Assembly: GCA_002698785.1 (NCBI GenBank)
Contig: PAAG01000009.1
Span: 1-64,000 of the forward strand
DNA length: 64,000 bases
Direction: 5' to 3'
DNA from: Verrucomicrobiales bacterium
GTDB lineage: Bacteria > Verrucomicrobiota > Verrucomicrobiia > Verrucomicrobiales > DEV007
In this document: positions 42,443-45,224 of the stretch, piece after piece
Layout: every line of letters begins with the position of its first letter
Position numbering within the stretch: the stretch's first letter is position 1
Translations under genes and position numbers: made by a program
Notes under the pieces: generated by a model
What the model saw: only the letters and a program-made list of their open reading frames with translations
Databases searched by the model: none
What the model was told of the DNA's origin: nothing

Positions 42443-42621
42443 GAGACGAATAAAAGGTGAGATTCTAACAGGTATTTTTCCCAGCAGCAGGAATGTGACA
42501 GATGCCGGCGTATACTGAACCGAGGAAAACTGGCAAAGTTGTAAACTCTTCGAATATTCACAAAAAAAAGAGCGTTGCCGCTTTCCTCGGTCGATGCGAA
42601 AAAGTTTACACTGACATCGAA

Positions 42622-44397
42622 ATGTCTCTGATTCTTAAACCGCTCATAGCATCAGTGCTCAACGAGGAATTTTTCCAGATTCCCCGGGACGACTGTACGG
42701 TCTCGATTGGGCGGGGAGGGGGCAACGACCTGAAGATCGATCACATTTCAGTCTCGGGCAGTCATGCCATTCTGGAGTGTATTGGGCACAATGGTGTTGA
42801 GGTAGTCGATTGCGACTCCAGCAACGGCACGTTCGTAAATGGCCTCAAAGTAACCCGTCATCCCATCAAGCCAGGTGACCATCTCCGCTTCGCATCTGCA
42901 GAGTTCAAGGTTCTCTCCAAGGAAAGTCCTGTAGCGTCGGACGAGGAGGAGGTCCCGGGGAAATCTCCCGTTGAAAAACTGTCCGAGGAGATCGAGCAGT
43001 GGAAAACCCGGAATGAATCCCTCCAATCCGACTTGGATTCATCTAGGGCGAGGGAAAGCGTAACAGAGGAGCAACTTAAGGACTCAGGGGACCAGATTGC
43101 CCAGTTGCAGTCTCAACTGGTCTCGAAGGACTCGGAGATTGAGGAATTGAGTAATGCCCATGCGGCCCGCCTGAAAGAACAGGCGTCGTCTCATCAAGCC
43201 GAGATCGAGCAACTCAAGTCGGAACTCAGTTCCAAAGAAGCTGTGATTTCACAGCTCAGCGAAGAAAATCAGTCAAAAACGGAAGAGATTCGAAATTTGG
43301 TCCGCGACGCAGAATCTGCTTCGGAGAGGGAAGTGCGGCTGAATGCTGAGATCACTCGATGGCGTTCTGAAGTGATGGAACGTGATCGGTCTCTGGCAGC
43401 ACTCCATTATGAAGTTTCGCAGCGGGATGGGTGGCTGAGTCAAAAGACCGCAACGATTTCTGCTTTCGACGCCCAGGTTGCCGAGCTGTCAGCAGAGGTG
43501 GATTCTCTGGGGAGAAATCTTTTCAATACCGAGGAGGCATTGCAGGAACGGACCACTGTCCTCGCTGAAAAAGAGGAGAAGATTGAATCAATTCGGCTGC
43601 GATTGCGGCGATTTACCGAAGGAATACTGTCTGATTGGGAGTGGTGGTTGGAGGCTGCTGCCGAGGTCCCGACCGAGGCTTCGGAAAATGATGATGAAAT
43701 CGATGGCATTCTATCCATGCTGGAATCAGCGCGAGTGAAGATCCAATCCCACCTCGACCAATTAGAGCCAGTCTGGAAAAAGTTCGGAGCAGGGGCTCAG
43801 CGGGAGTTGGAGGAGGTGTGCGAGAACCTCCGCAGAGAACAATCCGAAATCTCAGACAGCGTAATTTCTCGACAGAAAGAGCTCGCAGAAATGAACTCCG
43901 GGCTGGACGACCTTCGGCGTGAAATGGACAAAGAAGTGCGTCGTGCTCAGGGACTTAGTCGGCGGGGTGTGGAGGTCGAGATTCCTGAGCGGTTCGAGTC
44001 GATGGTAATCGCAAAGGACAGCGAGGAAGAGATTTTCCGCAGCCTGATTCAGCGGATCGAATTCTTTGATCGCCTTCTGGAGGGCTACAAAAGGAACAAG
44101 AAACTCAAAGAAGTGGTCTACGAGTTAGATGAATTTCGCCTTCGCCTCGTCGCGATCCTGGAAGCGAATGGCGTGCATCCCTTTGAGGTTTCTCCAGGTA
44201 CGGACCTCACCCTGAAACATCGGAAACAGGTGAAGATACTCGCTCGAAAAGGCTGGGGCACCAGGGATTTTGCCGAAGTTCAGTTCAAACCCGGGAAAGT
44301 AGATTCCGTTGTGCGGTGCGGGTATCAGATCGGCAGTGGCGAAACGGCTACTATTTTACGTAAAGTTGAAGTCTTGATTCAGGAGTCTGCCGGGTGA
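42622..44397 (+). CDS. FHA domain, coiled-coil and GrpE-like domain fusion protein
   Basis: The 591-residue cytoplasmic protein has an N-terminal FHA domain (about 20-97) with the phosphothreonine-binding signatures 'GRGGGNDL' (30-37), 'SVSGSHA' (43-49) and 'DSSNGTFVNG' (65-74). A long coiled coil follows (about 110-300 and 390-460). The last ~115 residues read like the GrpE head region: 'ELDEFRLRLVAILEANGV', 'HPFEVSPGTDLTLKHRKQV' and 'VVRCGYQIGSGETATILRKV', matching the helical bundle and beta domain with its final 'GY.(L/I)....LRxAxVxV' strand. No hsp70 or dnaJ gene is adjacent. The start at 42622 lacks a clear ribosome-binding site; an upstream ATG at 42502 is possible. Confidence 0.75.
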   Translation: MSLILKPLIASVLNEEFFQIPRDDCTVSIGRGGGNDLKIDHISVSGSHAILECIGHNGVEVVDCDSSNGTFVNGLKVTRHPIKPGDHLRFASAEFKVLSKESPVASDEEEVPGKSPVEKLSEEIEQWKTRNESLQSDLDSSRARESVTEEQLKDSGDQIAQLQSQLVSKDSEIEELSNAHAARLKEQASSHQAEIEQLKSELSSKEAVISQLSEENQSKTEEIRNLVRDAESASEREVRLNAEITRWRSEVMERDRSLAALHYEVSQRDGWLSQKTATISAFDAQVAELSAEVDSLGRNLFNTEEALQERTTVLAEKEEKIESIRLRLRRFTEGILSDWEWWLEAAAEVPTEASENDDEIDGILSMLESARVKIQSHLDQLEPVWKKFGAGAQRELEEVCENLRREQSEISDSVISRQKELAEMNSGLDDLRREMDKEVRRAQGLSRRGVEVEIPERFESMVIAKDSEEEIFRSLIQRIEFFDRLLEGYKRNKKLKEVVYELDEFRLRLVAILEANGVHPFEVSPGTDLTLKHRKQVKILARKGWGTRDFAEVQFKPGKVDSVVRCGYQIGSGETATILRKVEVLIQESAG

Positions 44398-45224
44398 GGT
44401 TTCACTCGATGCCAACCCTGTTTCGAATCGCAGTTTGGATCCTTCTTTCTCTCTTGGGAGCATTGGAAGGGTTTTCTGCCGACAGCTCAGATCCAGCTGC
44501 ACGCTGGGTTACTGTCTATGGGTGGGTGCAGACAGGGGAGCGGTTAAACAAAGCGGGCCAGCCAGCACTTGCTTTGGGAAGCTACATCGAAGCTCACCAG
44601 AGGTTGAAAAAACTCAGGGCGGATCATCCCGATTTTGAGCCAGAGATTACCGGCTTCCGATATGAATGGTTGGAATCAGAAATTCAACGACTCGACGAAA
44701 CGCTGGATGCATCGGAGCACGATGTGATGATGAAGTATCTCGATTTCGTGGAGCTTCTAGAGCAGGGTATCGAAGAGCGATTCGCGAACAAGTTCGCAGA
44801 TTCCCTGACCACCCTCGACATTGCTCGAAAGCAGATGGATGAACTTATCGAGAAAAAGCCAGAGTCGTTTCGCGAAGCCATCGCTTCTCAGTATGAACGG
44901 CTCGAGGACAATATCGACTGGCTATACGGTCAGGTGAATTTCAAAGAGCGCAGCCGCCAGGTTTCATCGTATGTCCCGGATGGCGTCGACTGGGGAACGA
45001 CGAAATACATTCGCGAATCCGACCTACCCTCGGAAAGGGGAAATATGACTTTGTCCGGGGCATTGTTCCCTGGTGGGACAGCTCCCGAAGACGTGGAGCC
45101 GAGCTCCATGAAGGAATTGGAAAATGATTCAGAGGGAACGACGGACTCCTCAAACCCGAAGCGGGCTTTCCGAATGTCTACCAGGCAAAAGCCGGGAAAC
45201 GAAGAAGAAGAGTCAGACCAGTAA
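44394..45224 (+). CDS. Exported helical protein translationally coupled to the FHA-GrpE-like gene
   Basis: A GTG at 44394 overlaps the preceding stop by four bases (GTGA); an ATG at 44409 is the alternative. The ~276-residue product has a signal peptide (ending about residue 28, 'GFSAD'), then a helical region with TPR-like character ('RLNKAGQPALALGSYIEAHQ', 'LLEQGIEERFANKFADSLTT') up to about 180. A polar, probably disordered C-terminus is rich in Ser, Glu and Lys. I do not recognise a family. Coupling to a cytoplasmic FHA protein implies a shared function across the membrane. Confidence 0.65.
   Translation: MRFHSMPTLFRIAVWILLSLLGALEGFSADSSDPAARWVTVYGWVQTGERLNKAGQPALALGSYIEAHQRLKKLRADHPDFEPEITGFRYEWLESEIQRLDETLDASEHDVMMKYLDFVELLEQGIEERFANKFADSLTTLDIARKQMDELIEKKPESFREAIASQYERLEDNIDWLYGQVNFKERSRQVSSYVPDGVDWGTTKYIRESDLPSERGNMTLSGALFPGGTAPEDVEPSSMKELENDSEGTTDSSNPKRAFRMSTRQKPGNEEEESDQ

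Follow-up and report, generated by a model that had tools for sequence, protein, structure and literature searches.

The DNA analysed here is a 64,000-nucleotide (nt) stretch, hereafter the window, from a 7.0-Mb draft genome of a Verrucomicrobiales bacterium (genome G000, contig C12). One of its genes encodes a protein of 591 amino acids (aa) in which an FHA domain is joined by a coiled-coil stalk and a short hinge to a C-terminal head that resembles GrpE, the exchange factor of DnaK-type Hsp70. We refer to this protein and its orthologs as the window type. The gene and its parts are as follows.

42622-44397, + strand: FHA-coiled-coil-GrpE-like protein, window type, 591 aa
42622-42921, + strand: FHA domain, aa 1-100 (Pfam stretch aa 27-90)
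42964-43938, + strand: coiled-coil stalk, about aa 115-439
43939-44031, + strand: hinge, LSRRG.EVEIPERFESMVIAKD, aa 440-470, 31 residues
44023-44385, + strand: GrpE-like head, aa 468-588, helices plus beta domain

An FHA domain and a conserved hinge on a variable stalk

The open frame reaches back to position 42502, and the start was set at 42622 (MSLILKPL) because most orthologs begin alike, for example with MALSLRPL. Residues 27-90 match the Pfam FHA family PF00498 with an E value of 7.9e-16 (58.7 bits against a cut-off of 20.7). Nine residues that we take to be the positions usually needed in FHA domains for phosphothreonine binding (G30, R31, S45, H48, N68, G69, T70, N73 and G74) are kept in 18-20 of 21 ortholog rows; one row (L022) lacks the FHA part, misses all of these residues and was excluded from the identity figures below. 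The top NCBIfam match of the stalk is to SMC (1.6e-10, aa 115-330), and for this reason the stalk is taken as generic coiled coil. The intact FHA signatures and the long coiled coil described in a first-pass annotation of this DNA are thus both borne out, the former by the Pfam match and the conserved phosphothreonine residues, the latter by the SMC-type match.

Spacing between the FHA domain and the hinge ranges from 236 to 448 residues among the 21 orthologs. In the remaining 20, mean pairwise identity drops from 46% in the FHA part to 29% in the main stalk, then runs at 38% in the stalk end, 77% in the hinge, 49% in the head helices and 63% in the head beta domain. Such a pattern suits a functional part at either end with a spacer between them, plus the hinge. 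The hinge (43939-44031) is the most conserved of the six stretches compared, above both the FHA domain and the head.

The C-terminal head is predicted to have a GrpE fold

In bacteria, GrpE is ordinarily a small cofactor that floats free. An AlphaFold2 model of residues 395-591, built from 21 aligned sequences, has a mean pLDDT (predicted local distance difference test score) of 83 and consists of a long helix, a helix pair and a beta domain with a conserved Gly-Tyr hairpin. In a Foldseek search of the PDB with this model, GrpE or GrpEL1 entries fill the first nine places (E 1e-4 to 4e-2), and the tenth match has an E value of 1.0. VIA-align likewise scores GrpE entries highly, six of them at Z values of 8.6-10.7; examples are 4ani_B (Z 9.8, root-mean-square deviation (rmsd) 2.9 over 102 residues) and 8gb3_E (Z 8.6, rmsd 3.0 over 100). 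By prediction, then, the C-terminal domain has a GrpE fold, which answers the AlphaFold check suggested at first pass.

Profile comparisons point the same way. When the window family profile is set against 20 canonical GrpEs from this bacterial order, hhalign gives a probability of 91.8, while control comparisons with the unrelated profile of the exported partner encoded next door score 1.9 and 0.3. Window-type orthologs from four genomes (G001, G003, G005 and G007) reach 26.2-29.0 bits against the Pfam GrpE family PF01025 in the genome search, above its cut-off of 25.8; when the 123-aa heads are isolated, G007 passes (26.9) and G001, G003 and G005 give 25.2, 25.0 and 20.2 between them. A sequence search of the PDB with the head profile ranks two GrpE chains first, at E values of only 0.09 and 0.12. 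On the predicted fold and the profile evidence, a mere chance likeness to GrpE was rejected.

Giant relatives lie beside a lidless Hsp70 gene

A second protein of the same layout is encoded elsewhere in this genome (G000:C48). It has 1698 aa, with an N-terminal FHA domain, a stalk and a homologous C-terminal GrpE-like head; the profile of such sister heads scores 99.4 against the window family in hhalign. An Hsp70 gene of 499 aa lies 134 nt downstream on the same strand (L155:8735-10234, G000:C48). We call this Hsp70 lidless because, in alignment, its sequence stops once the beta part of its substrate-binding domain is complete. Its identity in other genomes of the order is 61-87%.

The arrangement is widespread. 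Sister loci were defined as those with a GrpE-like gene that belongs to a type other than the window type and the membrane-anchored type described below, which gave 52 loci once two with GrpE beside another Hsp70 (L172 and L173) had been excluded. Forty-one have the FHA domain in the same frame; in the other 11 none was found there, some of these being truncated at the end of a contig or split between frames. The lidless Hsp70 is directly downstream in 38 of the 52, a share biased upward because the first 20 sister regions were partly chosen for a known nearby Hsp70, and in 32 of the 41 with FHA in frame. A less biased set, from an order-wide search blind to neighbours (L274-L293), has it directly downstream in 14 of 20 loci, in one of which (L279) the Hsp70 is in pieces. 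Sister loci without a downstream lidless Hsp70 are L162, L165, L254, L255, L257, L259, L260, L273, L276, L283, L285, L286, L287 and L290.

Sister proteins reach 2388 aa, and their stalk is usually much longer than that of the window type, while compact proteins that join FHA and GrpE-like parts also occur next to the same lidless Hsp70 (294 aa in G034, 276 aa in G443). Isolated giant heads pass the Pfam GrpE cut-off in three genomes (G052, 47.4 bits; G053, 39.1; G037, 31.6), and that of G000 falls below it at 18.3. Hmmscan returns no GrpE match for the whole giants at L155 and L165; once the head is excised, the match shows up. The FHA and GrpE-like parts lie in different overlapping frames at L257, L267, L283 and L286, a result of frameshift or assembly error. 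In a tree of heads the window type forms its own group, separate from canonical GrpE and from the giant type, with the forks between the three weakly supported.

Co-occurrence was counted, from presence lists compiled by hand, in 23 genomes of the genus that are at least 90% complete; these are drafts, so absence means not found, and p values serve only as a guide because related genomes are not independent. Giant and lidless Hsp70 are distributed 14/1/0/8 (both, giant only, Hsp70 only, neither; p 1.8e-5). Taken as a family, the FHA-stalk-GrpE proteins are well supported as Hsp70 exchange factors.

A membrane-anchored form and the range of the family

A third kind of GrpE-like protein has 177 aa and consists of an N-terminal hydrophobic segment followed by the head (L205:9502-10035, corresponding to G000:C54:156501-157034, - strand). 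All six copies of this membrane-anchored type that were read have the hydrophobic start. The 177-aa gene adjoins genes that read, by eye, like bioD and glmM. Short head-only frames are present in 12 of the 23 genomes, all 12 of which carry the lidless Hsp70, and two genomes have the Hsp70 and no such frame (p 6.7e-5).

Matches of any type to the sister-head profile were obtained in 84 of 279 genomes of the order, representing 23 of its 41 genera. In a sample of 240 genomes from across the phylum, 7 gave matches, all seven within this order, and absence elsewhere in the phylum may reflect the reach of the profile, since it was built from this order. A first scan of a genome-contig collection with the whole window protein returned no relatives; scanning the same collection with the head alignment gave 21 loci, all from Verrucomicrobia-group bacteria and many apparently on contigs already in the genome set used here, with Verrucomicrobiales and Akkermansiaceae among the named relatives.

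Another divergent kind of GrpE (50-64 bits) lies directly beside a different Hsp70 at G034:C18, G036:C46, G050:C171, G050:C183 and G055:C12. These neighbours are further private Hsp70-GrpE pairs in the order.

A tethered exchange factor and its alternatives

We propose, with a probability of roughly 0.5, that the window protein is a tether-like nucleotide-exchange factor for an Hsp70, located in the cytosol and probably dimeric. Its divergent GrpE head would sit at one end of the stalk and the FHA domain at the other; the stalk, at about 340 residues, would span some 50 nm if it forms one continuous helix pair. Through its FHA domain it would attach to a protein that one of the cell's many Ser/Thr kinases has phosphorylated on threonine, and release of adenosine diphosphate (ADP) from Hsp70, hence of the client, would speed up at a chosen place. 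The proposal is based on the domain composition, the predicted GrpE fold, the conservation of the FHA residues and the Hsp70 gene adjacent to the sister proteins. From these we infer dimerization, exchange activity, phospho-docking and the place of action.

Control by phosphorylation is plausible on sequence grounds, because the genome holds many kinases and FHA domains: 30 separate Ser/Thr-kinase-like frames and seven FHA domains lie above the Pfam cut-offs. The first-pass suggestion of a kinase-controlled Hsp70 exchange factor therefore gains from the predicted fold and from relatives that are often beside an Hsp70 gene, and its kinase part stands as plausible from the kinase and FHA counts.

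Several observations weigh against the proposal, and those from the head come first. Against PF01025 the window protein scores 18.0 bits as an isolated domain (aa 469-591, E 0.0023) and 12.7 at full length, so that even the isolated domain is under the gathering score, and no GrpE model is among its NCBIfam matches. The pTM (predicted template modelling score) of the head model is just 0.57. In VIA-align the last GrpE row, at Z 8.6, is little above the first unrelated row at Z 7.9, and by the program's own warning such values can be common for helical folds; because this gap is small, Foldseek was given more weight. The canonical FDP..HEA motif before the beta hairpin is lost (LTLKHRKQV aligns with FDPNVHEAL), and relative to canonical GrpE the last hairpin is longer by about four residues. 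The genome also encodes a canonical GrpE (G000:C54:76948-77415, 161.7 bits). In view of the lost motif, the enlarged hairpin and a new conserved motif, KGWGT....PF.PGEV, we call the head GrpE-like and not canonical GrpE. The GrpE pattern originally noted in the C-terminal region holds in predicted fold and family profile and fails in the Pfam score of the window copy and at FDP..HEA.

The genomic context adds to this side of the balance. No Hsp70 gene is present in the window, in 15 stretches of 10-20 kilobases (kb) around a whole window-type gene, or in five further stretches with a broken copy or with only the exported partner described below, in agreement with the earlier remark that none is adjacent. 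Among the 23 genomes, 11 have both the window type and the lidless Hsp70, six the window type only, three the Hsp70 only and three neither (p 0.64). The window type is thus found in six of the nine genomes without the lidless Hsp70 and is absent or broken in three of the 14 with it.

These points bear on two other readings. The GrpE fold may be kept as a structural or docking head that performs no exchange, on an FHA scaffold that recruits Hsp70 or another protein or merely dimerizes. This recruiting, non-exchanging head is the main rival, and we regard it as unlikely yet worth serious weight: the FDP..HEA motif is lost and the hairpin enlarged, the window type stands apart from both canonical GrpE and the giants in the head tree, it has no tie to the lidless Hsp70, and the hinge rather than the head is the most conserved part. 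It fits less well with the beta domain, the part of GrpE that contacts Hsp70, being better conserved than the FHA part (63% versus 46%), and with the sister family being tied to an Hsp70 gene.

Alternatively, the window protein might act in trans on the lidless Hsp70, as a third arm beside the giant and the membrane-anchored GrpE-like protein. Heads of common descent (the hhalign score of 99.4) and the presence of the window type in 11 of the 14 genomes with lidless Hsp70 speak for such an arrangement, but six genomes that are 91-97% complete (G010, G020, G022, G030, G031 and G032) keep the window type although no lidless Hsp70 was found in them, and with an association p of 0.64 we consider it improbable.

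For the tethered exchange factor, the lack of a nearby Hsp70 gene and of any tracking with the lidless one indicates that its Hsp70 is probably another. A search of the genome for Hsp70 genes, as had been suggested, gave DnaK (G000:C19), a 602-aa Hsp70 (G000:C50), a 561-aa Hsp70 (C22) and the lidless 499-aa protein (C48). If the window type serves an Hsp70, this is probably DnaK or the 602-aa Hsp70, and not the lidless one.

An exported protein is encoded next to the window-type gene

The gene that follows has these features.

44394-45224, + strand: exported helical partner, 276 aa
44394-44480, + strand: signal-peptide-like N-terminus of the partner, read from the sequence by eye, without a signal predictor

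The stop codon of the FHA gene overlaps the GTG start of the partner in a GTGA at 44394-44397, just as first described. The partner has a hydrophobic N-terminus, then helices, then a tail of low model confidence, and judged by its sequence it is probably located outside the cytoplasm. Its earlier label as an exported TPR-like protein survives in part: the protein is helical and begins like a signal peptide, and no Pfam TPR family is listed for it at E values up to 5. Foldseek returned no match to its model at E 0.001, and its best fold match is an MIT domain (Z 12.8, rmsd 1.5 over 74 residues), a value within the warned range for helical bundles.

The partner adjoins the FHA gene in 22 of 23 window-type loci, the exception (G005) having the two on separate contigs. 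The 20 pairs measured are on the same strand with spacings of -11 to +22 nt; L008 and L011 were excluded because the start of the partner is unclear. The partner occurs without the FHA gene between it and a Gfo/Idh gene in three genomes (G006, L143; G021, L144; G005, L154), and in a fourth (G026, L146, G026:C131) the FHA gene is broken while the partner frame is open. Since it persists in genomes with a lost or disrupted FHA gene, the partner can do without that gene; the missing or broken FHA-GrpE genes of G026, G006, G021 and G005 represent ongoing gene loss. A search of the 33 genomes of the genus recovered the partner in 31, all except G014 and G027; the copies in G024 and G029 contain in-frame stops. 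As to whether the genes stay together in relatives, they do in 22 of 23 window-type loci, and the pairing is not obligatory.

A single envelope-spanning complex of the FHA protein and the partner has been suggested, and their adjacency on one strand at such short spacings in 22 of 23 loci is what it would predict. However, the partner carries a signal-peptide-like N-terminus (by eye) and stays in place without the FHA gene or beside a broken copy, so that assembly of the two, which the first-pass annotation thought possible, is very improbable. The pair constitutes a shared operon or conserved neighbourhood, which is not evidence of a complex.

On one side the pair is flanked by a Gfo/Idh oxidoreductase gene, then dnaG and rpoD, and on the other by sulfatase, NAGPA-type glycosidase, TPR, TonB and ExbB genes (Pfam names throughout); much of this order recurs in relatives. 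Long open reading frames that precede the FHA gene or are fused with it at L151 (682 aa), L150 (527 aa), L135 (1211 aa) and L152 (872 aa) were rejected as real full-length genes: the first three look like the adjacent Gfo/Idh gene read in antisense, and L152 was judged by analogy with them only. A WGT motif is conserved in both adjacent proteins, as KGWGT in the head (44248-44262) and DWGTT in the partner (44988-45002), probably by chance.

Phospho-addressed Hsp70 machines and known systems

A broader picture can be drawn tentatively, and at lower odds than the tether itself. Verrucomicrobiales may have evolved phospho-addressed Hsp70 machines, in which GrpE heads would be carried on stalks with an FHA tip, ranging from some 50 nm to beyond 200 nm, or in one kind held by a membrane anchor. 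Dedicated or shared Hsp70s would then undergo exchange at sites marked by kinases, and the window protein would be a member freed from its own Hsp70 gene. If this is true, Ser/Thr kinase signalling is wired directly to where and when Hsp70 releases its client, and some of the many kinases and FHA domains in this little-studied group acquire a role. The sister locus with its lidless Hsp70 offers a ready-made test system.

No description of an FHA-GrpE protein was found in full-text literature searches, whose scope leaves out most subscription journals, and no family for the fusion was returned by Pfam, NCBIfam or PADLOC. Membership in a known defence system is not supported by the PADLOC matches: those of the FHA protein run over the coiled coil (LmuB, 1.1e-6; JetC, 7e-6 and weaker; PbeC, 0.0047), for the lidless Hsp70 there is a single weak match (0.0013), and for the partner, the membrane-anchored protein and the 294-aa compact form there is none.

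Two described kinds of system share elements with these loci. CoCoNuT type III systems include an Hsp70-like protein, CnuD, and what they share is an Hsp70-like domain in a setting with abundant coiled coil; they differ in being of the McrBC type, and no word of the main text begins with 'GrpE' or 'FHA' (PMC11090510). GAP1-N2 GTPase conflict systems, found mainly in actinobacteria and firmicutes, contain HSP70 and GrpE genes and resemble the sister loci in that Hsp70 is encoded beside GrpE in a special neighbourhood; they differ in being centred on the GTPase, and the parts of the article considered do not mention an FHA-GrpE fusion (Kaur et al. 2020, PMC7159879).

The closest comparisons are with GrpE itself and with the giants. 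To GrpE and GrpEL1 (PF01025) the likeness lies in the predicted fold of the head. Relative to these exchange factors, the window protein adds an FHA domain, a stalk of ~340 residues and a conserved hinge, lacks FDP..HEA, has a hairpin longer by about four residues and is encoded away from any Hsp70 gene. With the sister giant (G000:C48) it has both the domain order and a homologous head in common, whereas the giants usually have a longer stalk, usually lie adjacent to an Hsp70 gene and group separately in the head tree.

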